64,000 nucleotides of DNA from Nitrosospira sp. Nsp14 (GTDB taxonomy: Bacteria > Pseudomonadota > Gammaproteobacteria > Burkholderiales > Nitrosomonadaceae): assembly GCF_900113575.1 (NCBI RefSeq), contig NZ_FOPV01000001.1, positions 186,001-250,000 of the forward strand. The letters are read 5' to 3'. Under the pieces are notes generated by a model. The model was not told the origin of the DNA and did no database searches. It worked only from the letters and a program-made list of their open reading frames with translations. The position numbers and the translations under genes are program-made. This document shows positions 40,531 to 55,565 of this stretch, in pieces (the first letter of the stretch is position 1; each line of letters opens with the position of its first letter).

Positions 40531-40830
40531 TTATGTACCCTCTTGATCGGACGCCATTCCTGAGGCGTCGGGTCCTTTATGGGGCTCGGGTGACTGGTGT
40601 TTTTCGATGTAGGCAATAATATCCCCCACGGTGGTAAAGCTTTTAGCTTCTTCACTATCGAAATTGATACCAAAGTTATCTTCTGCGTCAAACAAAAGCT
40701 GAATCGTATCCATCGAATCAAGTCCGAGTTCGTCAAATTTCGACGCCCTGCTTATTGTGGAAATATCCAGATTTTCAACTTTTGTAGCGATGAACTGTAT
40801 GACCTTCGCTTCAATGTCCGCTGTGTCCAT
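40531..40830 (-). CDS. Acyl carrier protein (dedicated)
   Basis: The 99-residue carrier protein has the phosphopantetheine site DELGLDSMDTIQL with Ser39. A GAAGGAAGAG ribosome-binding site precedes the ATG. It carries an unusual C-terminal tail of about 20 residues, rich in Pro, Glu, Asp and Gly (after YIEKHQ), beyond the normal four-helix length. It follows a ketoacyl synthase gene by 15 nt. It has no fab genes other than this synthase around it, so it is probably not the housekeeping AcpP but a partner for specialised acyl transfer. Confidence 0.88.
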   Translation of the reverse strand: MDTADIEAKVIQFIATKVENLDISTISRASKFDELGLDSMDTIQLLFDAEDNFGINFDSEEAKSFTTVGDIIAYIEKHQSPEPHKGPDASGMASDQEGT

Positions 40831-40845
40831 ATATAATCTCTTCCT

Positions 40846-42066
40846 TCAATCGAGCGTTGTGAAAACGATACTTGCATTATTGCCTCCAAACCCGAAAGCA
40901 TTACATAAGGCAGCGCGCGGGTTTTTTTGCTGCGCCTGATTTGGCGTGTAATCAAGGTCGCACTCTGGGTCGGCCTCATCCAGATTAATGGTGGGGTGTA
41001 CTATGCCAGTATGAAGAGCCATGATGGTGGCGATACTGCCGATCGCTGCTGATGCGCCGATGGAATGTCCTACCAAGGATTTAGTCGCGCTAATCGCAAT
41101 ATCCTTCGCGCCTTCCCCGAACAGCGTTTTGATCGCACGGGTTTCGACAACGTCACCTAAGGGGGTGGAAGTGGCATGGGCATTGATATGTTCCACCGCG
41201 TTTTTCGCGATGCCCGCATCCGCGATTGCGGCTTCCATGGCGGCTACCTGTCCGCTCAGGTCCGGCATGACGATATGTGCCGCGTCGCATGCCTGTCCAT
41301 AGCCAGCGAGGCGGGCATATATCTTCGCCCCTCGACGCTTGGCATGCCCTTCCTCCTCCAGTATCAGTATGCCCGCGCCTTCCGACATGACGAACCCATC
41401 CCGACCTTTGGCAAATGGCCGTGATGCTCGCGCAGGATCCGTGTTAAAGCCGGTGGTTAAGGCGTGCAATATCTCGAAGCCATTCATCGTTAGTGGCAGC
41501 ACGCACGCCTCCGCACCACCTGCAACAACCGCATCCGCTCGACCCGCCCGCAAGAGATCGAGGGCCCCGCCAATGGCATTTGCCCCGGAAGAGCACGCCG
41601 TGCTGCAAGTGAGATTCATCCCTTTTAGCCCATGTCTGATTGCGATCCAGGCAGCAGCTGAATTCGCCATGGTTCGAGGCACTGTAAACGGGGGTACGGG
41701 TTGATTTCGAAACTTGCGGAGCGCAGAAGACTCAAAGGTAGCAAAACCGCCCATTCCCGAACCTATGCTTACGGCTACACGTGGCGGAGAATATGCGTCA
41801 AGCCCACCCGCATCCTCAACCGCGAGTTTGGCGGCCAGCAGCGCGAGTTGGGTGAATCTGTCCGTTTGCTCGATATATTTCGCTGACAGGAACGTTTTTG
41901 GATCGAATCCGGGCACTTCTCCCGCAACTTGCGAGCGCTGACTGGAGGCATCGAAGCTGCTTACCCGCCGGATACCGCTGACACCGTTGATTGCCGCTGT
42001 CCAAAACTGGTCAGTGCCGATGCCAATAGGGGAGACCACCCCCATCCCCGTGACGACTATGCGCAT
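40846..42066 (-). CDS. Beta-ketoacyl-ACP synthase (FabF-like)
   Basis: The thiolase-fold condensing enzyme of about 406 residues has all catalytic residues: nucleophile Cys158 in STACSSGANAIGG and the two histidines in HINAHATSTPLGD and KSLVGHSIGASAA. The N-terminal IVVTGMGVVSPIG is typical of the FabF family. The start is ATG 42066; the frame extends two codons to a TTG. It pairs with the ACP gene downstream and lies in front of a lipid-related cluster, so I infer that it makes or elongates a dedicated acyl chain. A housekeeping fatty acid synthase gene cannot be excluded. Confidence 0.88.
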   Translation of the reverse strand: MRIVVTGMGVVSPIGIGTDQFWTAAINGVSGIRRVSSFDASSQRSQVAGEVPGFDPKTFLSAKYIEQTDRFTQLALLAAKLAVEDAGGLDAYSPPRVAVSIGSGMGGFATFESSALRKFRNQPVPPFTVPRTMANSAAAWIAIRHGLKGMNLTCSTACSSGANAIGGALDLLRAGRADAVVAGGAEACVLPLTMNGFEILHALTTGFNTDPARASRPFAKGRDGFVMSEGAGILILEEEGHAKRRGAKIYARLAGYGQACDAAHIVMPDLSGQVAAMEAAIADAGIAKNAVEHINAHATSTPLGDVVETRAIKTLFGEGAKDIAISATKSLVGHSIGASAAIGSIATIMALHTGIVHPTINLDEADPECDLDYTPNQAQQKNPRAALCNAFGFGGNNASIVFTTLD

Positions 42067-42365
42067 ATACAACTGTAGTCAATCATATAGGTAGAAAAAG
42101 CTTCTCCATGCGGAAAATGGTAAAAATTTTACAGTATCCTGCAAATCCCGAGAGAGTTCGACGCAGCAATTCCGATCTGTGGGCGGGTGGGACGGATGGA
42201 AAAAGAAAATCCATGCTATCGGGTTAACGTCGGTAATGGAAGTTGGTGCCACGATATGTCTGTTCCATATTATCCCAACTGCCGTATTGACCTGTTTGCC
42301 AACAGAAGCAGCTGTGGTCGCCTTTTCATAACTCGTACTCGATAAGTTCGACCTTTATGTACCTA

Positions 42366-42620
42366 TTACTTTGCGTTAAAAATCATTGGGAAAAGGTACC
42401 TCAGAATACCTCCCATGATCCATATAATCAGTATTAAGCTGGAGACGACGGCCACTCCTTCCAGAATTGCCGAGAAGAGCGTCGAGCCCAGACTATCGAA
42501 TTCCTGATGCCCCTCATCAGTACGCCGGCGTTTGCGGCGGTTTCTCACCCATATCTGCAGCCCAACGACCGCTGGGATGAGGGCGAGAGAAATTAGAAGA
42601 TTGTATTCGGAAGTTTCCAT
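42366..42620 (-). CDS. Small membrane protein, two helices
   Basis: The 84-residue protein has a first hydrophobic segment around residues 8-25 (LLISLALIPAVVGLQIWV), then a very basic loop (RNRRKRRR), a polar region (DEGHQEFDSLG) and a second long helix of about 30 residues (ILEGVAVVSSLILIIW and onward). An AAGG lies 11 nt upstream of the ATG. I do not recognise the family. It stands between the ketoacyl synthase gene and the GNAT-type gene and may belong to the lipid cluster, but this is only position. Confidence 0.5.
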   Translation of the reverse strand: METSEYNLLISLALIPAVVGLQIWVRNRRKRRRTDEGHQEFDSLGSTLFSAILEGVAVVSSLILIIWIMGGILRYLFPMIFNAK

Positions 42621-43065
42621 TGATTAATCAACCTTTGCGTAATGACGATTGCTGCTCCAGTGAGGCCGCTTCAGCCCGGAGTGAAACAAGTAAATGACTA
42701 TTCATGAAATCGGTAAACTACGGCAGCGTCGAGTTTTACTCATGGAGCCAACAAATTGCTGAATTGTTGCTCGGTGCCAGAAAGCGGCGATTATAATATC
42801 ACACGCCGCATGCATGTCATCCAGTTAACGCGTCTTCACCCATCCTGAATCTCATCCCACTTGTGCAGCTCCGGAGGGCGAGAAGCACGGCTGCAGCTGT
42901 TTACGTGGGGCGATGCCGTTTTTCCCTGTGTTTGGCGACGTACGAACAAAGCGTCGTATTGAGAATCCTCGCATCCTTTCGACTGTTCGAGGTTTTATGA
43001 AGCGGATGTTGCGCTGGTGTGTCGAAAACTTTTGAAAATCCATTTTATGGCCCATCCGTTTCGTT
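42621..43065. other. Intergenic region upstream of lipid cluster
   Basis: About 445 nt lie between the divergent small membrane protein gene and the GNAT-type gene. I see no supportable coding sequence or RNA gene. It is presumably the promoter region for the plus-strand operon that starts at 43066. Confidence 0.4.
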
Positions 43066-44220
43066 ATGAATGACCAATCTGTCCTGTCTGCGCCGCGCGA
43101 AATTACGGTGCAGCCAGTCACAAATCGACGCGAGATGGGTGTCTTTATAGATATACCCTGGCGCATCTATGCTGACGACCCAATGTGGGTACCGCCCTTA
43201 CGCCTGGAGCGGCGCCTGCATTTTTCAAAATTCAATCCATTTTTTAAGCACGGCGAATGGCAGGCATGGGTCGCATACCGGAATAATGAACCAGTGGGAC
43301 GGATCAGTGCCCAAATTGATCAAATGCACCGACAGCGCTATGGTGGGGACACCGGTCATTTCGGCTTACTGGAGTGCATAGACGACGTAGAAGTATTCGC
43401 CGCACTGATGCATACCGCCGAGGCGTGGTTGACTGCGCGGGGCACCCGCCATATTAGCGGCCCCTTCAATTTGTCTATAAATCAGGAGTGCGGCGTTCTG
43501 GTGGAGGGTTTCGATACCCCCCCGATGGTAATGATGCCTCATTCACGCAGGTGGTATGCGGCGTTACTGGAAGGGCTCGAGTATCGCCCATTGAAGGATA
43601 TGCTTGCCTATTGGGTGGCGGTAGATTTTAAGGTCCCCCGATTGATGACTTCACTGATCGAGAAATTTGCGGATCATGTGCGCTTGAGGCCATTGCGCCG
43701 CGACAAGTTCAGCGAAGAAATGGAAGTACTGCGTGATATATTCAACGACGCATGGTCGGAGAACTGGGGCTTTGTCCCTTTTACCAAAGAAGAGTTCGCT
43801 GAGCTTGGCGCCAGTCTGCGTTTTCTGGTTCCAGACGATTGTATCCAAATTGCCGAGGTGGACGGCGTTCCATCGGCATTTATGGTGGCACTACCGAACC
43901 TTAACGAAATTTTTGCCGAGCTTAACGGAAGTCTGTTTCCATTTGGCTGGGTCAGGCTGCTCAGGATTAAATCCAGCGGAGGGGTACGTACTGGCCGAAT
44001 ACCCCTGATGGGGGTACGCAAGCAGTTTCATAATACTCCGCTAGGGATGGCGCTGGCCTTTATGGTAATCGACGCTCCCAGGGAGCTAGGACGTGCCATG
44101 GGGGTCGAGGCGGTAGAGTTGTCCTGGATACTTGAGGATAACAAACCCATGCGTGCCATTCTGGCTAGCCTGGGCTGCAGGGAATATAAGCGTTACCGGA
44201 TTTACGGAAAAACGCTGTGA
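43066..44220 (+). CDS. GNAT-like acyltransferase (YghO/bCerS-type)
   Basis: The 384-residue protein is of the acyl-CoA N-acyltransferase superfamily. Characteristic stretches are FIDIPWRIYADDPMWVPPL, FNPFFKHGEWQAWVAYR, RISAQID, GHFGLLECIDD, HISGPFNLSINQECGVLVEG and the C-terminal ELSWILEDNKPMRAIL. I recognise this as the uncharacterised family that includes E. coli YghO and, from memory, the bacterial ceramide synthase bCerS of Caulobacter. It is first in a plus-strand run with a nucleotidyltransferase, LptF/LptG, a CDP-alcohol phosphotransferase and a lipid kinase. N-acylation of a long-chain base is a reasonable hypothesis, not proven. The ORF starts at ATG 43066; no strong ribosome-binding site is visible. 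Confidence 0.72.
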   Translation: MNDQSVLSAPREITVQPVTNRREMGVFIDIPWRIYADDPMWVPPLRLERRLHFSKFNPFFKHGEWQAWVAYRNNEPVGRISAQIDQMHRQRYGGDTGHFGLLECIDDVEVFAALMHTAEAWLTARGTRHISGPFNLSINQECGVLVEGFDTPPMVMMPHSRRWYAALLEGLEYRPLKDMLAYWVAVDFKVPRLMTSLIEKFADHVRLRPLRRDKFSEEMEVLRDIFNDAWSENWGFVPFTKEEFAELGASLRFLVPDDCIQIAEVDGVPSAFMVALPNLNEIFAELNGSLFPFGWVRLLRIKSSGGVRTGRIPLMGVRKQFHNTPLGMALAFMVIDAPRELGRAMGVEAVELSWILEDNKPMRAILASLGCREYKRYRIYGKTL

Positions 44221-44258
44221 TCAACCGAGAGATTCACGCTAGGAGCCAACTTTAGCCA

Positions 44259-45074
44259 ATGAGCACAAGGGGTGAGTTTATCGCTGTGGTGCTGGCGGCT
44301 GACCGCACAGCCAACGATCCAATCGCGCGTAAGACGGGTTCGGCCTGCAAGGCAATTGCACCCGTGGGTGGGATGCCCATGATCATTCGTGTACTGGATG
44401 CGTTGGAAGCGAGTGGAATGGTAAAGACAATCGTTGTTTGCGGTCCGCCCGCAGCGATAATCGCTGAGTGTCCGGAACTGGAAGACCGCATTCGCTCCGG
44501 GCGAGCGATCTGGCTGCCGAACCTGGATTCGCCCAGCCGGAGCGCCAATAGCGCGCTCGCACAGATTGATCAGCAGGCTCCTGTATTGCTGACGACAGCC
44601 GACCATGCCTTATTGACGCCTGCGATCGTGCAGTATTTTCTGACCAAATCTCGGGCGGCCGGCAGCGATGCTGCTGTGGGCGTCGTCAGGTACGAAGATG
44701 TGGCAGCGGCGTTTCCCAATTCGAAGCGAACAGTAATAAAGTTGCGGGATGGGGGCCTTTGCGGTTGCAACCTTTATGCGTTTCTTAATCCTCGGGGCCG
44801 CGGGTTGGTCTCATTCTGGCAGCGGGCGGAAGATCTCCGAAAACGCCCCTGGCAACTGATCGCGCAGACGTTTGGCCCCGTCGCTGTTATCTTGTATTTG
44901 CTGGGACTGTTGTCGATCAATAAGGGGCTTGCGACCGTCACGGCCAGAACGGGCATCAAAGTGCAGCCTGTGTTTTTGCCTTATCCGCAAGCTGGCGTGG
45001 ATGTCGATAAGGTTGAGGATTTGCTGCTCGCGGAATCCGTGTTGGTCGAAGCACGCTCCGCTACGCGGGGGTAA
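44259..45074 (+). CDS. MobA-like nucleotidyltransferase
   Basis: The 271-residue protein has an N-terminal NTP-transferase Rossmann fold: VVLAADRTANDPIARKTGSACKA in the nucleotide-binding position, LLTTADHALLTP as the metal-binding Asp site, and GCNLYAFLNP. The usual GxGxR loop is changed (AADRTANDP), so activity may differ from classical MobA or IspD. The region from about residue 200 is rich in hydrophobic residues (VAVILYLLGLLSINKGL), which could place it at the membrane. It follows the GNAT-type gene by 38 nt and precedes lptF. Activation of a lipid head group with NTP is the obvious inference. Confidence 0.75.
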   Translation: MSTRGEFIAVVLAADRTANDPIARKTGSACKAIAPVGGMPMIIRVLDALEASGMVKTIVVCGPPAAIIAECPELEDRIRSGRAIWLPNLDSPSRSANSALAQIDQQAPVLLTTADHALLTPAIVQYFLTKSRAAGSDAAVGVVRYEDVAAAFPNSKRTVIKLRDGGLCGCNLYAFLNPRGRGLVSFWQRAEDLRKRPWQLIAQTFGPVAVILYLLGLLSINKGLATVTARTGIKVQPVFLPYPQAGVDVDKVEDLLLAESVLVEARSATRG

Positions 45075-45139
45075 ACGATTCACCACTCCTATTACCGATC
45101 CCGAAGGCGATCCCATCAAGCCTTGGCGGGGGATAATCT

Positions 45140-46216
45140 TTGAAAATAATAGACCGATATATCACCCGCGAATTGCTGATACCGTTCACCGTGGTGGCGG
45201 TTATTCTCGCGACACTGTTTTCAAGTTTCAGTAGCGCCCGTTTTTTGGCAAGCGCGGCGTCCGAATCGCTTGGCCTTGCCGCCATGCTCAAGTTCATACT
45301 GTTAAAAACAGCGATCGCTCTCGAAGTACTGATGCCGATCGCGCTATACGTCGCGGTAGTCATGGGGCTGGGCAGGTTATACAGAGACCAGGAGATCAGT
45401 GTGCTGCGCTCGGCCGGGGTTAGCGAGAACCGCGCGCTCTTTGCAGTCCTCATTGTTGCCATTCCGGTTGGGATCGCAAGTGGCGTGCTTTCCATTTTCG
45501 TCCGGCCGTGGGCATATGAAGAAAGCTACATGCTGAATGCGCAGGCAGAGGCGGAGTTAAATATAGATCGATTTCAGGCCGGGCGCTTTTATGGCAACGA
45601 GGGCAAGGGCAGAGTCGTTTTTGTGCAAGCCAAGGACGATTCCGGGAAACAGATGCAAAATGTATTTCATTACATCCATAAGAGCGGCAGCAGCGAGATC
45701 ATTCTTGCAAAACAGGCTCACCAGCAAGAGCTCAGACCCGGCGAGCGCCCACAAATACATTTAGGAGAAGGGTTTATTTACAAGCTCATGCATTCGGGGG
45801 CGAAGGACACGGTGGTCCAATTTGAAAAATTGGTTTATTACACTGACAGCGGGAATGTGTTGGACTATAAACGCAAGGCAGCTCCTACCTCGGCGTTGAT
45901 GAAATCCGATCAGCCGCGAGATATTGCCGAATTCCAATGGCGGCTGTCGCGTCCCATTGCTACGATCCTGCTGGCGCTTATTGCCGTCGCATTCAGTCGC
46001 GTGCCACCCCGACAGGAAAAAGGGGAAAAAAATTACTATGCCGCAGCTGTCGTTTTTGCGATCTACTATATCTTGAATGGATTGGCCCAGACCTGGGTGG
46101 AGCAAGGCACGATCGGAAAAATGCCCGGTGTGTGGTGGCTTTACGTTTTAATGTCCCTGGCTGCTTTTGCTCTGCTCGCGCCGGGTTTCCGTCAGAAAGT
46201 GTTTGTGCGACGATGA
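45140..46216 (+). CDS. lptF: LptF-type LPS/lipid export permease
   Basis: The 358-residue YjgP/YjgQ-family permease has two or three N-terminal helices, the cytosolic coupling segment RDQEISVLRSAGVSE, a periplasmic beta-jellyroll region of about 150 residues and C-terminal helices (PIATILLALIAVAFSRV; NYYAAAVVFAIYYILNGLAQ). The start is TTG with a GGGGG purine stretch upstream. It overlaps lptG by 4 nt. Its sequence and its context of lipid-head-group genes, not pepA, suggest a second, specialised pair instead of the essential LPS exporter. No LptB or LptC is present, so the ATPase would have to be shared. Confidence 0.85.
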   Translation: MKIIDRYITRELLIPFTVVAVILATLFSSFSSARFLASAASESLGLAAMLKFILLKTAIALEVLMPIALYVAVVMGLGRLYRDQEISVLRSAGVSENRALFAVLIVAIPVGIASGVLSIFVRPWAYEESYMLNAQAEAELNIDRFQAGRFYGNEGKGRVVFVQAKDDSGKQMQNVFHYIHKSGSSEIILAKQAHQQELRPGERPQIHLGEGFIYKLMHSGAKDTVVQFEKLVYYTDSGNVLDYKRKAAPTSALMKSDQPRDIAEFQWRLSRPIATILLALIAVAFSRVPPRQEKGEKNYYAAAVVFAIYYILNGLAQTWVEQGTIGKMPGVWWLYVLMSLAAFALLAPGFRQKVFVRR

Positions 46217-47277
46217 ATGTAATAAACCGGTACCTGGCCGTGCAAGTCCTGATGGGTCTGGGGATCGCGACGGTAGTACTACTGCCGCTGTTCGGTTTTC
46301 TCGATTTGCTGGATCAGCTTGACGATGTCGGCAGAGGGACTTACCGGGTTCAGGATGCGTTCCTGAACACAGCCTTGCTTCTGCCACGCAGGTTTATCCA
46401 GTTGGCGCCCTTTATCGCGTTGCTGGGTAATGTCATCGCCCTGGGGCGGCTCGCGGTTGGGTCAGAGCTGACAGCGCTACGTGTTGCCGGAGTATCGCCC
46501 ATTGGTATCAGTCGGGCCCCGCTCGCGGTCGGACTGCTCCTTCTGGTATCCATTGCTGTGCTGGATCAGTTCGTTGCCCCGCAACTTCAACAAAAGGCTA
46601 TATCATCCAGGGCTGTCGCGCTTGAGAAGAGCGCCGCCCTGGGGAAAAACCTGGGTATATGGACGCGCGATGAACGTAATATATTGCGTATAGGGGAGAT
46701 GTTGCACTCCGGAAGGGCGGCAGATATCGAGATCATGCATTTTGACGACAACGGGTTTCTGCTGACTTACACCCACGCACAATATGCCGACTTCAACGGT
46801 GGTGATTTGTGGGATCTGCAGGACGTCACCACGAAGACATTTACTGGAAACCGGATTGAATCGGTCAATGAGCAATCGACGAAGTGGAGATCATTCCTGA
46901 ATCCGGACGATATCTCCACACTGACCAAATCGCCTGAGAGTCTTTCACCAGTCGAGCTGTTTTTGCATGTTCGTTTCCTCCGGGCCACGGGTCAAGAGGC
47001 GGACGCTTATGCACTTGCGTTGTGGCGAAAAGCGGGCGGAGGGCTGACGACAATCGCGATGCTACTGTTTTCGATTCCCTTTGTTTTTGGATCGGTAAGG
47101 GCCGGTCTTGGCAGCAGACTCGTGCTTGCGACCATGCTTGGGATCGGTGTGTATTTGTTCGATCAGATCGTCTCGAATGCTGGCCTCGTACTTCGTTTGA
47201 ACCCGGCACTAACTGCACTTTCACCGGGGTTAATGTTAGCGACTATTGCTGTTTTATGGCTACGGCGTATTTTTTAG
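46213..47277 (+). CDS. lptG: LptG-type LPS/lipid export permease
   Basis: The 354-residue partner of LptF begins MNVINRYLAVQVLMGLG. It has N-terminal helices, the coupling segment RLAVGSELTALRVAGVSPIG, a periplasmic domain (about residues 120-260) and three C-terminal helices (TTIAMLLFSIPFVFG; LVLATMLGIGVYLFDQIVS; LSPGLMLATIAVLWL). The ATG overlaps the lptF stop (ATGA), so the two are translated together. LptFG transports lipids from the inner membrane to the Lpt bridge. In this cluster the cargo could be the lipid made by the neighbouring enzymes. Confidence 0.85.
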   Translation: MNVINRYLAVQVLMGLGIATVVLLPLFGFLDLLDQLDDVGRGTYRVQDAFLNTALLLPRRFIQLAPFIALLGNVIALGRLAVGSELTALRVAGVSPIGISRAPLAVGLLLLVSIAVLDQFVAPQLQQKAISSRAVALEKSAALGKNLGIWTRDERNILRIGEMLHSGRAADIEIMHFDDNGFLLTYTHAQYADFNGGDLWDLQDVTTKTFTGNRIESVNEQSTKWRSFLNPDDISTLTKSPESLSPVELFLHVRFLRATGQEADAYALALWRKAGGGLTTIAMLLFSIPFVFGSVRAGLGSRLVLATMLGIGVYLFDQIVSNAGLVLRLNPALTALSPGLMLATIAVLWLRRIF

Positions 47278-47410
47278 CCGCTTGTCTTGAATTGCCGATG
47301 ACGAACCGTGCATCTGTTGCCAAACGGCCAGCCGCCAGCTACTTTAGGCGTTTATATCGATCATGTCGCCATCTGTGTGATTCCCACCATCGTTTACCGT
47401 TGAAGGTGAC

Positions 47411-48682
47411 ATGACCCTGTTACCGGAACGAGATCAACATAAAGATTTGCATATGCCAGCAGTGATCTACGTGCACATCGTCGGCGATAGCCAGACGACC
47501 ATTTGGGGTTTGACCGGGCGCGAGCGCCTGCAGCGGATGCTGCGGCCTTTTAAGCAAGTTAGCCTAGTCGCCAACCCCGACCAGATCCCGGCGCATGCGT
47601 TAGCCTTATTCCTGCGGGGCGATCATCTGTTTGATTCCAGAGTATTGGCTTCGTTGATCAGTGCGCAGACAGACCTGGTATTTTGGACGGATAAAGGTCA
47701 GTCCGTTGGGGTGCGGATAGCCGGTGGGGAAGCGCATAGCGTGCTGGATGATTTCTTGTCCGGCGGAGGAGGACCGGTCATCTCTGGTCTGCCTCGTTGT
47801 ACGCTAAAGGACCTGAATCTGCTGGACCTTCGGCAAAGGCTCAAGAAAAGGGATCCGCCTTACGTGTTACCCATCAGAACCGATAACCGTCAAACGCTTG
47901 AGGCTGAACTGTTTACCCGCTCCTATAAGGGCGTGACCGATCTGGTGACAAAATGGCTCTGGCCGCTCCCCGCATTCTGGGTTGTACGTTTTTGCGTCCG
48001 CTTCGGTTTGAAGCCAAATCAGGTCACGGTCCTTAGCCTTGTGTTTGCGGTCGCGGCCGGAATTGCGTTCTGGCATAGCTACTACGGCCCGGGTCTGCTG
48101 CTGGGATGGTTGATGACCTTTCTGGACACCGTCGATGGAAAGCTGGCACGAGTGACTGTCACTTCAAGCCAATTTGGAGATGTGCTCGATCACGGTCTGG
48201 ATATCATTCACCCGCCGCTTTGGTATATCGCCTGGGGTGTGGGGCTGACCGCAACGTCAGCTGCCGCGGTGGACTTGCCGCTATTGTGCTGGCTGATACT
48301 TATCGGGTATGTTGGTGGCCGGATATGTGAAGGCGCATTTCAATTTTGGATCGCATCATTTGATATTTTCATCTGGCGCCCACTCGACTCATTTAACCGG
48401 CTCATCACTGCCCGGCGCAATCCTAACCTGATCTTGTTAACTGTCAGCTGGTTTGTGGACAGACCAGACCTTGGTCTCTTTTCGGTGATTGCCTGGCATC
48501 TACTCTCGACGGTCTTTCTTTCTGTAAGAGTAATGATGGGCTGGCAGGCTCGGCGGTCCCACGGCCATTTACAATCCTGGTTTGAGGAAATTGTCCCTGG
48601 GCAAGATGACGGGAAATTGGCTATTCGTATTTTTGCTCCTTTAACGGTTAAGGTAGATGATAGAAAAGTCACGAGTGGATAG
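47411..48682 (+). CDS. CDP-alcohol phosphatidyltransferase with N-terminal extension
   Basis: The 423-residue integral-membrane enzyme carries the complete CDP-alcohol phosphotransferase motif D-x2-DG-x2-AR-x8-G-x3-D-x3-D in DTVDGKLARV, then QFGDVLDHGLD, at about residues 237-262. Several helices follow. The first 150 residues form a soluble extension (VIYVHIVGDSQTTIWGLTG, ALFLRGDHLFDSRVL, VFWTDKGQSVGVRIAGG). It looks like a worn nucleotidyltransferase domain, reminiscent of bifunctional inositol-phosphate enzymes, but without an obvious active site. The family joins a CDP-activated group with an alcohol to make phospholipids. The final 26 nt overlap the lipid kinase gene. Confidence 0.82.
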   Translation: MTLLPERDQHKDLHMPAVIYVHIVGDSQTTIWGLTGRERLQRMLRPFKQVSLVANPDQIPAHALALFLRGDHLFDSRVLASLISAQTDLVFWTDKGQSVGVRIAGGEAHSVLDDFLSGGGGPVISGLPRCTLKDLNLLDLRQRLKKRDPPYVLPIRTDNRQTLEAELFTRSYKGVTDLVTKWLWPLPAFWVVRFCVRFGLKPNQVTVLSLVFAVAAGIAFWHSYYGPGLLLGWLMTFLDTVDGKLARVTVTSSQFGDVLDHGLDIIHPPLWYIAWGVGLTATSAAAVDLPLLCWLILIGYVGGRICEGAFQFWIASFDIFIWRPLDSFNRLITARRNPNLILLTVSWFVDRPDLGLFSVIAWHLLSTVFLSVRVMMGWQARRSHGHLQSWFEEIVPGQDDGKLAIRIFAPLTVKVDDRKVTSG

Positions 48683-49670
48683 ACTGGGTTCTGGAACAGC
48701 CACCATTGGCTTGATTTTTAATCCCTTAAGCGGACGTATTCGTAAACGCAAGGATGCAATAAGACGCGCGCTTACCGAGATCCCAGGCGCAACCTGCAGG
48801 GAAGTGACGAACGCACATGAGATTAATGCATCCGTCGGGGCTTTTATCGATGCTGGTGTTGATTTGCTTGTAATTGTCGGCGGGGACGGGACGCTTCAGG
48901 GCGTGCTGTGTCATTTATTTGCAACGCAGCCACGCTCAAGCTGGCCCATTTTGGCAGTGGTACCGGGCGGCACCACTAATATGACCGCGCTTGATCTTGG
49001 TATCTTGGGCGACCCGGAGTCGGTTCTGCAAAAGTTGAGAAACTCCTTACTGAAGCAGGCACCTCCTGTATTACGCCAACGTCACGTGCTATGCATTGAG
49101 CAGACCGGGGTGGCGAAGATTTACGGGATGTTCTTTGGCGTAGGACTTATCGCGCGGGCAGTGATATTTTCGCAAAGCAGGATAAAAAAGTTGGGCATTA
49201 CCGGGGAGATTTATGCCGCGATTATTACACTGGGCTATCTTGCCGGCGTACTTTTAGGATTCCGCAAAGGCTCGTGGGCACCCGTCAAGATGTCGATTAT
49301 TGAAGGGAATGCTGAGCTGCACAGGGGAGCCTTCGCGTTTCTTTTTGCCAGCACGCTGGATCGCTTGTTGTTTGGAATGCGGCCGTATTGGGGGCAGGAG
49401 CAGGAACCCCTGCATGTCACATTCATCCAGCAACAGCGAAAGCATCCCCTGCGCTCATTACTGCAATTACTTTCAGGACACGGCGATGCCCTCAAAGAGA
49501 AAAACGGTTATTACAGCCGAAATACCCAAGCGCTAGAGTTGCTGGTAGATGACGTTTACGTTGTAGATGGCGAATCTTACCGGGCAGCTGGCGGAGATGG
49601 ACCCCTTCGTATTACGGCAGCCGGTCCGGTCAGTTTTCTGGCGCCGGAGGGCGTAAAGGAGAAACTATAA
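48657..49670 (+). CDS. DAG-kinase-family lipid kinase
   Basis: The 337-residue protein has the diacylglycerol/sphingosine kinase catalytic domain: GLIFNPLSGRIRKRKDAIRR, the nucleotide loop VIVGGDGTLQGVL, and VPGGTTNMTALDLGI where PxGTxN is typical. It continues with the C-terminal beta-sandwich half typical of YegS/DgkB-like kinases. It phosphorylates a lipid alcohol (DAG, ceramide or related); the sequence alone cannot tell which. The ATG overlaps the upstream gene by 26 nt, and the downstream Tam41-like gene begins 2 nt after its stop. This tight spacing supports one pathway. Confidence 0.85.
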   Translation: MIEKSRVDRLGSGTATIGLIFNPLSGRIRKRKDAIRRALTEIPGATCREVTNAHEINASVGAFIDAGVDLLVIVGGDGTLQGVLCHLFATQPRSSWPILAVVPGGTTNMTALDLGILGDPESVLQKLRNSLLKQAPPVLRQRHVLCIEQTGVAKIYGMFFGVGLIARAVIFSQSRIKKLGITGEIYAAIITLGYLAGVLLGFRKGSWAPVKMSIIEGNAELHRGAFAFLFASTLDRLLFGMRPYWGQEQEPLHVTFIQQQRKHPLRSLLQLLSGHGDALKEKNGYYSRNTQALELLVDDVYVVDGESYRAAGGDGPLRITAAGPVSFLAPEGVKEKL

Positions 49671-49672
49671 CC

Positions 49673-50644
49673 ATGGCAGAACCTGAATCAGCCGTGGGTC
49701 AGCACGTTCCGGATGAACTGGAGGCGGAAATGGCCTCGTTGAGCTCAAAGGCTGTCTCGCCAGATTTTCTTGTCTTCGTTGAAGCATTGAAAGCGCGGTT
49801 TGCGTCATCGCTCGATGCCGTGCTTCTTTACGGATCCTGCTTGCGCGCACACGAAATTGGTGAGGGTGTCGCGGATTTCTATATCGTCGTAGACAGTTAC
49901 GATAAAGCCTATCCTGAACGTTATCTGAGGCAGATTAATGCGTGGTTGCCACCCAATGTATTTTATCTTGAGGTATCCCGGCGGGAGCAGAAATTCCGCG
50001 CCAAGTATGCGGTGGTCTCGATGGCAGATTTTGAGCGGGGAACACGACAGTGGTTTCACCCATATCTGTGGGCTCGATTTGCTCAACCTTCACGATTGTT
50101 ATATGCGCGTGACGAATTCGTCGGCAAGCGTATTCATCGTGCGCTCGCTTATTCTGTAATCACATTTCTGGAATCAACTCTTCCAGCGCTGGGCTCGGGC
50201 GTGGTGAACGCCGAAGCGATCTGGATCAACGGCCTGAGCCGAACCTATGCGGCGGAGTTGCGGCCTGAGCGAGAAACACGCGCTCGGCAGTTGGTCCAGT
50301 TAAATCTGGACGAATATTCCCGATTAACGGCGTGTGCCGCTCCAGCATTGGCTGAAATGCTGAAGGTGTTGCACAATGGAAATTATCAATGCGTGATAGA
50401 TGCGGCAGCCCACAGAGGTTCTCTATGGGGTTGGCGGTTGCGCCGCTGGCAGGGAAAAGTCCTGTCTGTGCTGCGACTCTCAAAGGCGGCATTTACCTTT
50501 CACGACAGCATTAGTTATGCCGCGTGGAAGATCGAACGGCATACCGGCGTTCGTGTCGAAGTAACGCCCATGTTGCGGCGGCATCCCGTACTGTGGGGTC
50601 TGAAGGTGTCCTGGCAGCTATTGCGGCGCGGTGTAATGCGGTAA
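49673..50644 (+). CDS. Tam41-like nucleotidyltransferase (putative phosphatidate cytidylyltransferase)
   Basis: The 323-residue soluble protein contains LLYGSCLRAHEIGEGVADFYIVVD at about residues 53-76, in two parts: a YGS nucleotide loop and a later D-x-x-V-V-D metal site. This matches nucleotidyltransferases, most closely the mitochondrial-type CDP-diacylglycerol synthase Tam41. Later stretches (VFYLEVSRREQKFRAKYAVVSM; SRLLYARDEF) also fit that kind of protein. A bacterial Tam41-like enzyme after a lipid kinase and near a CDP-alcohol transferase would supply CDP-activated lipid, which is chemically coherent. The assignment is by motif only. AAGGAG precedes the ATG, 2 nt after the kinase stop. 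Confidence 0.65.
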   Translation: MAEPESAVGQHVPDELEAEMASLSSKAVSPDFLVFVEALKARFASSLDAVLLYGSCLRAHEIGEGVADFYIVVDSYDKAYPERYLRQINAWLPPNVFYLEVSRREQKFRAKYAVVSMADFERGTRQWFHPYLWARFAQPSRLLYARDEFVGKRIHRALAYSVITFLESTLPALGSGVVNAEAIWINGLSRTYAAELRPERETRARQLVQLNLDEYSRLTACAAPALAEMLKVLHNGNYQCVIDAAAHRGSLWGWRLRRWQGKVLSVLRLSKAAFTFHDSISYAAWKIERHTGVRVEVTPMLRRHPVLWGLKVSWQLLRRGVMR

Positions 50645-51242: not shown

Positions 51243-52033
51243 CTAGGCAGGAGTTTGGCTGCAGTTTTGCCTGACGGCCATTTCGCCGAAGAGTTCTTCC
51301 GCTATCGCCAGATCTGCGGCAATATCTATTTCACACCAGCGGTTCCTGGACACGGGACATACATTAACCATTTGTTTTCCGGCCAGTGCATCAATAATGG
51401 TGAAATACCATGATCTGAACTCTGACTGATTTCGCAGCGCATTCTCGACCGCGTCACAAAACATCTGAGGGCCGTTCTGTCGGAAAAAGACGAGGCCAAT
51501 GGATTCAGCGTCTATTCGGTCCACGGGTAAGGTTTTGCTTACATTCTTCACCCATCCTCTCTTATCCAGCTGAACTTTCATGTCGTCCATGTCATACACA
51601 GATTTTTGGCTCACGCAAAGAGTAATTGGGGCGGGCTCTGAGTTCATCACTTCAACCAGTACGGACCCATCAAAAACTGTATCCCGTTGACCAACAGGAA
51701 GTCGTGATGCATTGCAAAACGCGCAACCCAGCAACTCACAAGGTTATCTGTAATCTCGAAAAAAGGATTAAAAATCGTATTGACTCGCGCACGATTGTTG
51801 TAGCGTTGCTGCAACACAGTCTCAACAAGTTCGGACTTAAAACCGGTGACGACGGTAATATCATCAATTCCATAAGCCAGGAGAGCGTCGATTTGCCACT
51901 CAATGATCGGTTTGCCCGAAATCGGGATCAGGCATTTCGGAATATCTTTTGTTAAAGACAGCAGTCGCCGTCCCTGCCCGGCGCTAAGGATTACTGTTTT
52001 AACTGGACGATAACTTGCTTTAATGCCGCTCAT
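51243..52033 (-). pseudogene. Sugar/phosphocholine nucleotidyltransferase, frameshifted
   Basis: Two overlapping frames together make one nucleotidyltransferase of about 263 residues. The N-terminal part (from 52033) has VILSAGQGRRLLSLTKDIPKC, PISGKPIIEWQIDALLAYG, VVTGFKSE, NTIFNPFFEITDNL and HHDFLLVNG. The C-terminal part (stop at 51243) has DTVFDGSVLVEVM, PITLCVSQKS, DMDDMKVQLDKRG and RWCEIDIAADLAIAEELF. The break is inside the NGD metal site: on the minus strand AACGGGAT reads as if one base of the Gly codon were missing (51683-51685). The family is LicC-like (CTP:phosphocholine or sugar-phosphate). It is the last gene of the minus-strand sugar operon. Either a true pseudogene or a sequencing error. 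Confidence 0.8.
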
Positions 52034-52175
52034 TGCAACCAGTTTTAAAATTCAATTCTTATCTCCAATTTATGCCCTGCATCCTTTTACCGCAATTCAT
52101 GCGGAAATTCCTCCCATCATGCACGATTCCCGAATCTGATGGAATGCCGACTGAAGCCGCACAGTCCCACACGAG

Positions 52176-52323
52176 GAAACTCAGGTGAGCAAGGAGTTCA
52201 AATCAGGTATTACGTCAACGTGGAGCGAAAAAGGGTTCTCATCCCCTGGGAAACTCAGGTGAGCAAGGAGTTCAAATCAGGTATTACGTCAACGTGGAGC
52301 GGAAAAGGGTTCTCATCCCCTGG
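52176..52323. repeat. 74-bp tandem duplication
   Basis: Two head-to-tail copies of 74 nt (52176-52249 and 52250-52323) differ at one base (GCGAAAAAGG versus GCGGAAAAGG). The right copy contains the last 22 codons and stop of the HAD gene. The left copy is a duplicate of that gene tail now lying beyond the stop. The period is not a multiple of three and the stop precedes the second copy, so the protein is intact. Confidence 0.95.
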
Positions 52324-52896
52324 GCGCACACGTCCCACAAATGCGACCTTGTTGACGTGCGCGCTTTGGTAATCGATCAAAGCGTCGCCGATCATCAACA
52401 CGCGCTCGGGAAGGAGAGCGTGGGCTGACAAAATATCCGCGATCAGCTGCTGTTTCGGCGTGGGGGAACCCCGCACAGCGGTAAAATAGGACGCCAGGCC
52501 GCGGCGACTTACTATTGTATTCAGTTCCACTTCAGGTGTACCGGAGGCGACGAACAAGGGTATTTTGCCGGCTTCCCTGCGTATCAGTTCTGCCGCTCCC
52601 GGTACCGGATCGCTTGCGATCACGGCTTCAAGCACGAGTTCGGAAAAACGCTGGTCGAGATGCCGCTCTTCCTCTGGTGTGAGCGGGGGCTTTTCCAGCA
52701 GCGTTTCCTGGAAATAACGAAATTTCTGGTAACGCGACATCCCCCCGTGCAAGACATGATATCTTGCCACTTCGCTCATTACCGTCTCCCCATAGCTCCG
52801 ATAGAGATTGGCGAAGGCTTGGGTTTTAATTTCTCCCGATTCGACCACCACACCGTCAAAGTCGAAAATAATGGCGTGCCAGGCTAGGGTCTTCAT
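52255..52896 (-). CDS. HAD-family hydrolase (phosphatase)
   Basis: The 213-residue HAD-superfamily phosphatase has motif I IIFDFDGVVVESG (nucleophile and acid/base Asp), a helical cap of about 70 residues, motif II LFVASGTPEVEL, the motif III Lys in GSPTPKQQLIAD and motif IV LMIGDALIDYQSA. The start codon overlaps the epimerase stop by 4 nt, so it is cotranscribed. Its 3' end lies inside the tandem duplication. In this operon it could dephosphorylate a sugar-acid phosphate intermediate, analogous to KdsC in the Kdo pathway; this is inference. Confidence 0.87.
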   Translation of the reverse strand: MKTLAWHAIIFDFDGVVVESGEIKTQAFANLYRSYGETVMSEVARYHVLHGGMSRYQKFRYFQETLLEKPPLTPEEERHLDQRFSELVLEAVIASDPVPGAAELIRREAGKIPLFVASGTPEVELNTIVSRRGLASYFTAVRGSPTPKQQLIADILSAHALLPERVLMIGDALIDYQSAHVNKVAFVGRVRPGDENPFPLHVDVIPDLNSLLT

Positions 52897-53822
52897 GCTC
52901 TGTTGTCGGACGCGGATGGCGTCGCCTCGTCGTCTTCACCAGAGTGGTGCATGCTTTGGTGAATATCCTGCAGGCAGTCGAGAATACCTTGGCCCAGATC
53001 GACGTGCTCATTGAGCACCAGTTTGTGGCCAATGCGAGGCTGGAAGGCATACGGCGTAACCTCGTAATGATGCCCCGCCCTGGCCTGGTCAAAATGCAAA
53101 TCAATTTTCCAGGGCATGATTTCCGAGATCATCGTCATGACATCTTTGATGCGTAATCGCTCCTGTCCAGTCAGGATCAGATGGCGGTTGGCAAACTCCG
53201 GCGCCAGCACTTGCACGCTCATGCGTGCTGCGTCCTCCACGTGGATATACTCACGGATCGCCTCGCCACTACCATGGTATGTAATGGAATGCCGTTCCAA
53301 TGCTTCATGCAACATGCGGTAGATACCGTTACGCGCGTCTGCACGCCTGCCATACAGAGATCCGTAGCGTAAAATACTATAGTCCAGGCCGTAGCGCTCA
53401 TGGTAGGTTTCGATAAAGCGCTCGGCGGCCTGCTTGCTTGCGCGGTAAAAAGACCCCGACTCCGAATAGACATAAATGGTGCTGGCGAAGACGAATCGAC
53501 GGGCGCCAACGATACGCGCCGCTTCCAGCGCGTGCATATTTCCCAGGACGTTAATTGTAGCCGTAGCAAGCGGCTTATCGGTCGCTTCATCAATATCGGC
53601 GATGGCGGCGAAATTATAGACCACATCGGCGCCCTTGGCCGCTTCCGTCACCTGATCCAGATTCATGATATCGCCGATGATCATTTCCTGATCATGAGTC
53701 AGGTAGCGCGAGGGTGTGCGGTCAAACAAGCGTACCCGGTAACCGGCAGCGGACAATGCGTCCGCCACATGGCTACCCAGAAAACCACTGGCACCGTACA
53801 CGATTGCAATTTCGTTGGACAT
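52893..53822 (-). CDS. NAD-dependent epimerase/dehydratase
   Basis: The 309-residue extended short-chain dehydrogenase has an N-terminal NAD loop (VYGASGFLGSHVADAL), the Ser of the triad in FASTIYVYSESG, and the YxxxK pair in FYRASKQAAERF. An LRYGSLYGRR segment follows, typical of sugar-nucleotide epimerases and dehydratases. The C-terminal 20 residues are hydrophilic. It lies between the dehydrogenase (6 nt upstream) and the HAD gene (4-nt overlap). The substrate is unknown; a nucleotide-sugar or sugar-acid substrate fits the operon. Confidence 0.88.
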   Translation of the reverse strand: MSNEIAIVYGASGFLGSHVADALSAAGYRVRLFDRTPSRYLTHDQEMIIGDIMNLDQVTEAAKGADVVYNFAAIADIDEATDKPLATATINVLGNMHALEAARIVGARRFVFASTIYVYSESGSFYRASKQAAERFIETYHERYGLDYSILRYGSLYGRRADARNGIYRMLHEALERHSITYHGSGEAIREYIHVEDAARMSVQVLAPEFANRHLILTGQERLRIKDVMTMISEIMPWKIDLHFDQARAGHHYEVTPYAFQPRIGHKLVLNEHVDLGQGILDCLQDIHQSMHHSGEDDEATPSASDNRA

Positions 53823-53828
53823 TACCGT

Positions 53829-54767
53829 TTACCCATTCTCCATCGCGCGTGCTTCAATCAGGCCACGTAGTAGATTATCCGCTGCTTCCCATTCCATGCG
53901 TTGGCGCGACTCCCTCGCGAGCGAGCCGATGTGTGACGTCAGAATAGCAGTTTCGCATTTTAGCAGGGGCCCACGGTACGGTTCCTCCTCGAAAACGTCG
54001 AGAGCCGCCGCCCCCAGTTGTCCAGAGTTTAATGCTTCAGCCAGGGCTGTTTCGTCAATAAGCCCACCCCGCGCTGTGTTTATGATGACAGCCCCCCGTT
54101 TTACTCGCGCCAGGTTTTCTTTGTTAAGCAGATGGTGAGTGGCAGCATCGTAGGTGAGGTGAAGGCTGATGACATCCGCTTCTGCCAACAGTTTTTCCAA
54201 GGTCACCAGTTCTACCCCTTCCGGTGACTCACGCACATATGTGTCATGCGCCATCACTGTGGATTCGAATGCCTGGCACAAGCGTGCCACACGCCTGCCT
54301 ACCCGACCCAAGCCGATGACGCCCACCCGCTGGGCAGCGAGTAAACGTCCTTGTGTTCGGGGCCATTGCCCCATGCGGACCAGCTTGTCAGTAGTGGGCA
54401 CCTGTCGCAGAGCGGCCAGCATGAGGGCCATTGTGAGTTCCGCGACCGCCTGTGCCGGAGCTTCCGGCGTATTCAGAACGGTAATGCCATGCCGTTTTGC
54501 CGCGGCAAGATCCACACTGTCCAGGCCGCTTCCGCACCGGGAAACGACTTTAAGGCTTCTAGCCGAGGCAAAAACGCGCTCTGTCAAAGGTTCTATGCCG
54601 GCCACCATTCCGACAGTATCATCACCCAGCAATGCGATGACTTCGTCTTCAGTTAGTTTGCGTCCGTAACTGTTGCTGGCGATGCCCAAGCCCTTTTTCG
54701 TCAAATCCTGAATATGAGGATTGTTATCGGTATCAAACGAAGAGGTGGAGATAACGACTTTGCTCAT
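53829..54767 (-). CDS. D-2-hydroxyacid dehydrogenase (phosphoglycerate-dehydrogenase-like)
   Basis: The 312-residue NAD-dependent dehydrogenase has the NAD-binding motif VGVIGLGRVGRRVARL, the catalytic Arg in SRCGSGLDSVDL or NTARGGLIDE, the Glu in VFEEEPY and His in TSHIGSLARES. I place the start at 54767 because it overlaps the aldolase stop by 4 nt (ATGA); the frame extends 12 codons further. It lacks the extra regulatory domains of SerA, so it is probably not the serine enzyme. In this operon it may oxidise or reduce the 2-hydroxy/2-keto position of a sugar acid. Confidence 0.85.
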   Translation of the reverse strand: MSKVVISTSSFDTDNNPHIQDLTKKGLGIASNSYGRKLTEDEVIALLGDDTVGMVAGIEPLTERVFASARSLKVVSRCGSGLDSVDLAAAKRHGITVLNTPEAPAQAVAELTMALMLAALRQVPTTDKLVRMGQWPRTQGRLLAAQRVGVIGLGRVGRRVARLCQAFESTVMAHDTYVRESPEGVELVTLEKLLAEADVISLHLTYDAATHHLLNKENLARVKRGAVIINTARGGLIDETALAEALNSGQLGAAALDVFEEEPYRGPLLKCETAILTSHIGSLARESRQRMEWEAADNLLRGLIEARAMENG

Positions 54768-55525
54768 AGTGCTTCCCTTATTTGATGCATATGTCCCCGG
54801 CAAAGTGTGTCGAGGATACGAATGTCCAGGCCATAGCCAAGAAAGTTAAAGCCGGCTTTAATGTTCTGCACCAATTGGTCCGGGTCGGGTTCGACCACAT
54901 GGATGCCCCCCGGTTTGCCAATACGGCGCCCCGCCTCTTTTACCCGTTCTATCGCAGACTGAACCTCGGGATAATCCAGTTCGCCGGGACGCCCCATGGA
55001 GCCGGACAAATCGTAAGGTCCGATGATGTAGGCGTCGATTCCGTCCACCGAAAGGATAGAGTCAATCGCGTTGACCGAATCGATATGTTCAATCATCGCT
55101 ACCACCACGGCGTTATCTTCCAGCCACCGCCGGTATTGTTGAAATCTCGCCCCATAACCTTGAGCGCGAGCCAACCCTACCCCTCGCTGGCCGCGGGGCG
55201 GATAGTATACGGCCTGAACGGCAGCCGCGGCGTCTGCCGCGGTTCTGACCATGGGAACCATTACACCCGTCGCGCCCGCGTCCATCACGCGCTTGATCTG
55301 ATCAGGATGATTCGACGTGAGCCGCACAATCGCCGGGCAGCGTTGTCCATCCAATACCTGGATCAGCTTCTGGACGTCGCTCAGTTCCAGGACACTATGC
55401 TCGGTATCCAACACGAGCCAGTCGAACCCTGCTGCAGCCATGATCTCAGCAATCGACGGATGGCCCAGCGTGATCCATGAACCAATGGTTAAAGCATTTC
55501 GCGCTAGTTTTGCTTTAAGTTGCAT
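54764..55525 (-). CDS. HpcH/HpaI-family aldolase
   Basis: The 253-residue class II pyruvate aldolase has the family motifs DWLVLDTEHS, AIVRLTSN, VPMVRTAADAAAAVQA, YPPRGQRGVG and the metal ligands Glu in MIEHIDSVNAID and Asp in GPYDLSGSMG. These enzymes reversibly join pyruvate with an aldehyde to form a 2-keto-3-deoxy sugar acid. It lies between the KdsB-like gene (40 nt upstream) and the dehydrogenase (4-nt overlap). Together with a CMP-sugar-acid synthetase this points to synthesis of a 3-deoxy-ulosonic acid by an unusual route. Confidence 0.88.
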   Translation of the reverse strand: MQLKAKLARNALTIGSWITLGHPSIAEIMAAAGFDWLVLDTEHSVLELSDVQKLIQVLDGQRCPAIVRLTSNHPDQIKRVMDAGATGVMVPMVRTAADAAAAVQAVYYPPRGQRGVGLARAQGYGARFQQYRRWLEDNAVVVAMIEHIDSVNAIDSILSVDGIDAYIIGPYDLSGSMGRPGELDYPEVQSAIERVKEAGRRIGKPGGIHVVEPDPDQLVQNIKAGFNFLGYGLDIRILDTLCRGHMHQIREAL

Positions 55526-55565
55526 GAGTTATTCCTTCAAAGAGCCGTTCGAGCGGCTCGATTGA

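Follow-up and report, generated by a model that had tools for sequence, protein, structure and literature searches.

A Nitrosospira gene cluster with the apparent capacity to synthesize anionic ceramide phosphoglycerate lipids

A compact gene cluster of Nitrosospira sp. Nsp14 very probably makes the negatively charged head group carried by ceramide phosphoglycerate lipids, namely CPG and, where the full gene set is present, CPG2, and probably helps to export them, as judged from its sequence. The cluster lies in a window of 64,000 nucleotides (contig NZ_FOPV01000001.1, positions 186,001 to 250,000), and coordinates refer to this window unless a locus or contig is given. Its genes are apparent orthologues of Caulobacter cerS, CC_1153, lptF, lptG, cpgA, cpgB, and cpgC. 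Published work already describes this type of cluster in Caulobacter and includes Nitrosomonas eutropha among its holders (PMC11324152); new here is the co-distribution of cpgD, a HIT-family gene, cpgA, and a phosphoglycerate mutase gene across 120 Nitrosomonadaceae genomes. Gene complement, families, motifs, predicted folds, and gene distribution were determined directly, and from them we infer the lipid product in Nitrosospira, the export role of LptF/LptG, and CPG2 formation by a second cpgA and an intact cpgD on contig C21. The source genome (G000) comprises 54 contigs and 3.36 Mb at a completeness of 99.98%; C numbers denote contigs and L numbers fetched loci. The literature compared comprised PMC11324152, PMC12275187, PMC13228409, PMC10331486, and PMC9386255. 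Of the papers found to mention Nitrosospira together with ceramide, none concerns this lipid, as judged by title.

The run from 43066 to 50644 on the plus strand is compact, and the successive gaps from cerS to cpgC are 38, 65, -4, 133, -26, and 2 bases. The initial annotation, made from the sequence of the window, had described such a tight run, and the spacing (between -26 and 133 bases) confirms it. All of the open reading frames that it named were found where it placed them, with families that agree with the Pfam and NCBIfam matches except for the Tam41-like product, for which a Pfam search at E 0.01 gave no hit. The named genes are thus all real, but a broken COG1213-type nucleotidyltransferase gene (cpgD) at 51279-52042 on the minus strand had been overlooked. 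The features are as follows.

43066-44220, plus strand: cerS, bCerS-like GNAT N-acyltransferase (putative ceramide synthase step); PF00583 at 20.8 bits against a cutoff of 20.7, marginal
44259-45074, plus strand: MobA/CofC-like nucleotidyltransferase in the position of Caulobacter CC_1153; PF12804 at 59.0 bits
45140-46216, plus strand: lptF, lipopolysaccharide (LPS)-export-type permease; TIGR04407 at 331.9 bits against a cutoff of 230; TTG start as listed, putative
46213-47277, plus strand: lptG, LPS-export-type permease; TIGR04408 at 321.8 bits against a cutoff of 240
47411-48682, plus strand: cpgA, CDP-alcohol phosphotransferase, N-terminal domain cytidylyltransferase-like; PF01066 at 37.6 bits
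48657-49670, plus strand: cpgB, homologue of ceramide kinase, DAGK superfamily; PF00781 at 61.6 bits
49673-50644, plus strand: cpgC, Tam41-like nucleotidyltransferase, proposed CDP-ceramide synthase; assigned by profile and predicted fold
51279-52042, minus strand: cpgD copy, CTP:phosphoglycerate cytidylyltransferase family, frame broken once; two tblastn pieces in different frames
40531-40830, minus strand: flanking acyl carrier protein (ACP), judged not to be AcpR; PF00550 at 39.9 bits
40846-42072, minus strand: flanking FabF-type ketoacyl synthase; TIGR03150 at 502.7 bits against a cutoff of 493.75

The ATG of lptG at 46213 gives a four-base overlap with the lptF stop. The cerS gene has one match in the whole source genome and is 40-46% identical to the gene in the cerS position of alphaproteobacterial loci L034, L036, L037, and L043, all of which also carry the serine palmitoyltransferase gene spt. 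Directly 3' of cerS in L034, L037, and L043 stands the MobA-like gene, and the closest solved structure to the MobA/CofC-like protein is 2dpw (E 1e-20). A scan for promoters and terminators gave signals that were not in excess over shuffled sequence.

The remaining ceramide genes were located elsewhere in the genome. The initial annotation had called for a search for serine palmitoyltransferase and CerR, and both appear in a single minus-strand operon on contig C43 (L016), together with an AasR-like ligase and an AcpR-like ACP. The spt product matches NF047599 at 601.9 bits (cutoff 500) and the AasR-like fatty acyl-AMP ligase matches NF006624 at 853.6 bits, above its cutoff; the AcpR-like ACP and the CerR-like epimerase-family reductase were assigned by family and position only. 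Five published ceramide genes (spt, acpR, cerR, aasR, and cerS) are listed in the introduction of PMC11324152, and with this operon and the cerS of the window the source genome has a counterpart for each. A non-sphingolipid product, previously regarded as equally possible, is not equally likely. A Rieske ring-hydroxylating oxygenase gene is present near the operon (L016:6442-7602).

The ACP and ketoacyl synthase pair had also been counted as part of the pathway. That role was rejected: next to spt stands an AcpR-like gene, an arrangement shared with Caulobacter, and fabF-acp is only a flanking feature. Of the 80 named loci, 10 have this pair adjoining the cluster, each of them Nitrosospira or Nitrosovibrio by title.

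In loci L034, L037, and L043 an aasR-(cerR)-acpR-spt group faces cpgC-cpgB-cpgA, followed by LptFG, cerS, and the MobA-like gene. This arrangement matches the Caulobacter order from CC_1165 to CC_1153, in which spt-cpgC-cpgB-cpgA is CC_1162-1161-1160-1159 (PMC11324152). The CC_ numbers used here were assigned only from gene order and the published family descriptions; CC_1161 is described as CDP-DAG-synthase-like, CC_1153 as CofC-like, and CC_1159 as CDP-alcohol-transferase-like (PMC11324152). In Caulobacter, CC_1161 and CC_1160 are required for CPG, and CC_1159, CC_1153, and CC_1152 are required for CPG2 (PMC11324152). Caulobacter CpgB is a ceramide kinase and CpgD makes CDP-glycerate, activities that, like the mutant lipid profiles, were demonstrated by others.

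The synteny survey that the initial annotation proposed was based on 80 named loci, kept from 451 hits and brought in by cpgC alone. In the fetched stretch, a cpgB match is present in 74 and matches to cerS, lptF, and lptG in 57, which exceeds a chance association; many of the loci that lack the full set are short contigs. Judged by title, no Caulobacter locus is among the 80. The gammaproteobacterial loci L106, L109, L112, and L117 also carry cluster genes beside spt. The first three contain spt-acpR-cerR-aasR, cerS, lptFG, cpgB, and cpgC; the MobA-like gene and cpgA are unmatched in the fetched stretch and the CpgD match is weak, possibly reflecting a different head group.

The kinase, the Tam41-like enzyme, and the CDP-alcohol transferase could instead act on diacylglycerol or another glycerolipid, with the ceramide operon being unrelated. 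The solved Tam41 structures are titled CDP-diacylglycerol (CDP-DAG) synthases, and the window cluster itself is without spt and cerR. The cluster genes nevertheless stand beside spt in several alphaproteobacterial loci and in the four gammaproteobacterial loci above, mutation of their Caulobacter counterparts abolishes CPG or CPG2 (PMC11324152), and CpgB uses ceramide. The source genome moreover has its own PgsA- and PssA-type glycerolipid enzymes. A glycerolipid substrate was accordingly considered quite improbable, and a ceramide substrate is preferred.

The relationship of CpgC to Tam41 CDP-lipid synthases is supported by profile and fold comparisons. Against the Pfam Tam41 family (PF09139), CpgC scores 10.9 bits, below the cutoff of 24, and two of the ten members of alignment A1 match PF09139 at E <= 10 (best 1.4e-4). 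A profile search matched the Tam41 structure 6ig2 at E 6.6e-5. The AlphaFold model of CpgC, built from a 31-row alignment, has a pLDDT of 85.2. When this model was compared with the Protein Data Bank (PDB) using Foldseek, as structure prediction had been suggested for this protein, Tam41 CDP-DAG synthases took the first five places (E 4.2e-7 to 2.7e-6, target TM-score 0.53-0.59), followed by aminoglycoside nucleotidyltransferases at E 1.2e-4. Given the match by both profile and fold, CpgC probably converts ceramide-1-phosphate to CDP-ceramide. CPG formation in Caulobacter depends on cpgC and cpgB (PMC11324152) but not on cpgD, a pattern consistent with CDP-ceramide being the activated form to which the first phosphoglycerate is added. 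The idea is not new, and a claim of novelty was dropped: a nucleoside diphosphate-activated ceramide was proposed earlier in PMC11324152, and the 2025 paper PMC12275187 regards the mechanism as not yet identified. The term CDP-ceramide was not found in the literature searched.

For the other Cpg proteins, sequence motifs and folds were compared. CpgA contains at residue 239 the full pattern that we take to be the CDP-alcohol transferase motif. Its model (pLDDT 83.8) gives AF2299 and PIP synthase entries as the best folds, at E 1.5e-11 over most of its length. Inositol-lipid synthesis was rejected, as CpgA scores 53.4 bits against the archaetidylinositol phosphate synthase family NF040950, for which the cutoff is 180. 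CpgB has the GGDG motif and lacks the eukaryotic CxxxCxxC, as published for CpgB. In the intact CpgD proteins of contig C21 and of Nitrosospira sp. NpAV, the positions of R16, K26, N90, and N110-G111-D112 are kept and serine occupies the T93 position; the residues are those of PMC12275187 and PMC13228409, and the positions were matched by eye in the 12-row alignment A4. The N-G-D triplet appears in 12 of 12 rows, and the N90 position is altered in one, the distant L039. No chain named CpgD occurs among the best 60 of 99 PDB matches. The MobA-like gene was rejected as cpgD, the COG1213-like gene being the better fit and the MobA-like gene fitting the CofC-like CC_1153.

The proposed pathway would proceed as follows. 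AasR would load a fatty acid onto AcpR and Spt would condense the AcpR-bound fatty acid with serine, after which CerS (43066-44220) would N-acylate and CerR would reduce the product. CpgB would phosphorylate the ceramide and CpgC, with its Tam41 fold, would use CTP to form CDP-ceramide. A putative transferase would then exchange cytidine monophosphate for glycerate or phosphoglycerate to give CPG. CpgD would make CDP-glycerate, which CpgA would join to CPG to give CPG2, and LptF/LptG would move the lipid toward the outer membrane. The scheme thus retains the order suggested by the initial annotation for a ceramide-type lipid, namely acylation, phosphorylation, CTP activation, head group addition, and LptFG-like export. 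PgsA and an above-cutoff PssA are present in the source genome, together with a second PssA-family protein below the cutoff (L127:1414-2046 on contig C45; 97.7 bits against 107) that has a deacetylase-like gene nearby. It is a possible candidate for the missing CPG transferase.

The export step was considered against the permease content of the genomes. PF03739 has two matches in the whole source genome, both in the cluster, so that one LptF/LptG pair is present rather than a second copy beside an ordinary pair as in a Caulobacter-type genome. Among the 120 Nitrosomonadaceae genomes, sampled from a larger group, two matches occur in 108, three in seven, four in one, one in one, and none in three. 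In a tree of 51 concatenated LptFG pairs, 13 pairs from Nitrosomonadaceae, ten from gammaproteobacterial clusters, and one labeled deltaproteobacterial (L125) form one group, separated with a UFBoot value of 100 from two ordinary betaproteobacterial pairs, 14 ordinary gammaproteobacterial pairs, and all 11 alphaproteobacterial pairs. In G327:C1:190000-215000, an LptF/LptG-family match (210206-211237) lies near a cpgD-HIT-mutase set and a cpgA, with another match at 926461; it is possibly an extra permease.

Under a further explanation, the genes mainly form an LPS-export and housekeeping neighborhood in which the lipid genes stand by chance and LptFG serves LPS only. The pair is the sole one in the genome, and the KdsB-family gene at 55566-56342 (NF009905 at 296.3 bits, cutoff 255; TIGR00466 at 130.1, cutoff 155.2) suggests 3-deoxy-D-manno-octulosonate and LPS. 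Against a chance association, many loci of Nitrosomonadaceae and gammaproteobacteria share this arrangement, and in the LptFG tree the cluster pairs from both fall into a single clade, separate from the ordinary beta- and gammaproteobacterial pairs sampled. This explanation was judged very unlikely. Under the preferred reading, in which the cluster pair exports CPG lipids, the KdsB-family gene suggests that LPS is also made, and the single pair may serve both lipids.

The KdsB-family gene is part of a minus-strand block at 52255-56342 with HAD, NAD-epimerase, D-2-hydroxyacid dehydrogenase, and HpcH/HpaI aldolase genes. In many loci of Nitrosomonadaceae this block is conserved next to either the cluster or cpgD. 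The epimerase gene within it (52893-53822) was rejected as cerR, since a CerR-like gene stands in the spt operon and the window epimerase stands among the kdsB, aldolase, and dehydrogenase genes.

The cpgD copy of the window matches, as two pieces in different frames, a nucleotidyltransferase of 266 residues that is intact in Nitrosospira sp. NpAV (L055:13343-14140). Internal stops are absent in both pieces, and replacement changes per site are far rarer than silent ones, with silent sites near saturation. The break is therefore either a recent event or an assembly error. An intact cpgD is present at G000:C21:207039-207827 in a cpgD-HIT-mutase set with a second cpgA. Between this mutase gene and the second cpgA is a gene for a 665-residue protein (L161:9552-11549) that by eye resembles a fusion between a membrane domain of GtrA type and a glycosyltransferase of ArnT/PMT type.

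With its local cpgD broken, the source strain could stop at CPG, and some related genomes are without cpgA and cpgD altogether. The intact cpgD of C21 with its HIT and mutase genes, and the second cpgA, argue otherwise, and a stop at CPG was regarded as unlikely for this strain; CPG2 formation through the C21 genes is preferred.

The region around the break differs between close relatives. In the nearest named locus, that of Nitrosospira sp. Nsp2 (L046), 12 other matched proteins are 86-97% identical to those of the window, cpgB is 68% and cpgC 79% identical, and cpgA and cpgD are unmatched. Relative to L163 (genome G311, probably Nsp2), nucleotide identity per 500 bases is 77-94% up to about 47.3 kb. 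The sequences cannot be aligned across cpgA and the broken cpgD, identity is 64-77% over most of cpgB-cpgC, and it returns to 80-92% past 52 kb. A block from about 47.3 to 52.1 kb has thus been exchanged or remodeled in one lineage or the other. In a tree of 57 loci (the window and 56 of the 80, gammaproteobacterial loci included), cpgA is in the cluster in 42 and not in 15, which need not mean that those genomes lack it, and parsimony on the FastTree topology gives at least seven changes.

The distribution of the CPG2 genes was determined in the same 120 genomes. With presence of cpgD defined as a strong match (E < 1e-49; the absent genomes gave only E > 1e-16), and with G401, where the gene is in two pieces, and the source genome, through its C21 copy, counted as positive, cpgD is present in 101 and absent from 19. 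The HIT-family gene adjoining cpgD in NpAV is present in the same 101 and absent from the same 19. The cpgA gene is absent from 17 genomes, its presence or absence coincides with that of cpgD in 116, and cpgC is found in 118. For the 99 genomes with completeness of at least 90% and contamination of at most 5%, 89 have cpgD, HIT, and cpgA and 10 have none of them. All 14 fetched loci around a strong cpgD contain cpgD, HIT, and a phosphoglycerate mutase gene; of the 101 genomes, 99 have cpgD and HIT no more than 5 kb apart, and the mutase stands no more than 6 kb from cpgD in 96 of the 99 cpgD-positive genomes that have it. G311 has no strong match to cpgA, cpgD, or HIT, Nitrosospira sp. NpAV has all three, and N. 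multiformis has cpgA. Some Nitrosospira genomes without cpgA, cpgD, and HIT but with cpgC, probably including Nsp2, should make CPG and not CPG2.

The mutase of the module is of the 2,3-bisphosphoglycerate-dependent type (TIGR01258 at 251 bits, cutoff 81.7). A second, more distant homologue is found in most genomes and is the sole mutase of the six cpgD-negative genomes of genus label g1. CpgD prefers 2-phospho-D-glycerate (PMC13228409), so a dedicated supply of 2-phosphoglycerate by the module mutase is a natural reading; a dedicated supply enzyme was raised as a possibility in PMC12275187. For the HIT product, a PF01230 match at E <= 10 was obtained for 11 of 11 aligned members (best 2.2e-5), the first aligned member scores 19.0 bits, under the cutoff of 21.5, and the HIT protein 2oik was matched at E 5e-9. 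In the alphaproteobacterial loci L037 and L043 the HIT gene is directly before LptF, the place of CC_1157. CC_1157 is called probably unrelated in PMC11324152, which also reports that Zymomonas is without both CC_1157 and CC_1159, and this fits the link between HIT and cpgA. No paper joining phosphoglycerate mutase, ceramide, and Caulobacter was found in the literature searched, and for ceramide phosphoglycerate with HIT or mutase terms there was no such paper among the matches listed. The gene distribution hints that HIT and the mutase are pathway enzymes not linked to it before, and some relatives may have lost the CPG2 step.

Taken together, the results permit a tentative reading, for which the chances were put at somewhat below even. 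The conversion of CPG to CPG2 would be a separable module, repeatedly lost or relocated, that consists of cpgA, cpgD, HIT, and a dedicated mutase feeding 2-phosphoglycerate to CpgD. HIT would be a working part of CPG2 formation, Nsp2-like strains would make only CPG, and the one LptFG pair of the family, of sphingolipid-cluster ancestry, would carry both LPS and CPG lipids.

Several observations, in addition to the indirect assignment of CC_ numbers, weigh against the proposed pathway and this extension of it. The GNAT and Tam41 matches are weak at the Pfam level, and the cpgD of the window is broken. A sole LptFG pair in the genome means that its location in the cluster need not signify sphingolipid export. 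The alphaproteobacterial cluster LptFG fall outside the beta/gammaproteobacterial cluster clade, and just two ordinary betaproteobacterial pairs are in the tree. Some cpgC-bearing alphaproteobacterial genomes have two LptFG matches only, a count based on no more than six candidates in each genome and therefore possibly an underestimate, and a single pair is thus not peculiar to Nitrosomonadaceae. The seven changes in cpgA rest on a topology whose support values were unweighed. The joint absences span three of four genus labels (g1, g155, and g156), and the Fisher co-occurrence values ignore shared ancestry. cpgA and cpgD disagree in G325, G321, G409, and G415, all less than 90% complete. The module-type mutase (E < 1e-75) also appears in the cpgD-negative genomes G302, G306, and G314, which makes the mutase link looser than the HIT link; it was not found in the cpgD-positive G401 and G403, and in the cpgD-positive G313, G325, G357, and G386 there is one mutase match in all, with the distant homologue unseen. 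Finally, the cofitness of CC_1157 with other Caulobacter mutants is low (PMC11324152), and CC_1157 is equated with HIT by position only.

Anionic sphingolipids allow Caulobacter to survive without LPS. The Nitrosomonadaceae offer natural contrasts, as genomes with and without the CPG2 module occur together with one Lpt permease pair, and the HIT and second phosphoglycerate mutase genes are two new candidates linked to cpgD. The findings may bear on the surface lipid composition of soil ammonia oxidizers and place the head-group half of a probable pathway for an acidic outer-membrane ceramide lipid among the genes of an ammonia-oxidizing bacterium.

The enzymes can be compared with structurally characterized relatives. 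CpgC has the same predicted fold as the Tam41 CDP-diacylglycerol synthases (7ecd, 6ig2, and 6ig4) but is 12-14% identical to them, with a target-length TM-score of at most 0.59 and ceramide-1-phosphate as the proposed substrate. CpgA has the same two-domain architecture as the AF2299 and IPCT-DIPPS CDP-alcohol phosphotransferases (4o6m and 4mnd) but is 12-17% identical, with CDP-glycerate as the proposed donor and CPG as the proposed acceptor.

Among the closest known systems is the CC_1152-CC_1168 region of Caulobacter crescentus (PMC11324152), which shares cerS, the CC_1153-type nucleotidyltransferase, LptF, LptG, cpgA, cpgB, and cpgC with the window, and spt, acpR, cerR, and aasR with the genome. 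In the source genome, however, the genes are spread over at least three contigs. Its LptFG is the sole pair, whereas Caulobacter is described as having a second copy in its cluster. The cpgD of the window is broken and the intact copy lies elsewhere, with phosphoglycerate mutase and HIT genes alongside. Nitrosomonas eutropha, a member of the same bacterial family, has 13 or more of the 17 genes, distributed over three regions, with CC_1158, CC_1168, and CC_1166 reported absent (PMC11324152). In that paper CC_1157 is held to be probably unrelated, whereas the HIT gene, equated with it by position, tracks cpgD exactly across the 120 genomes.

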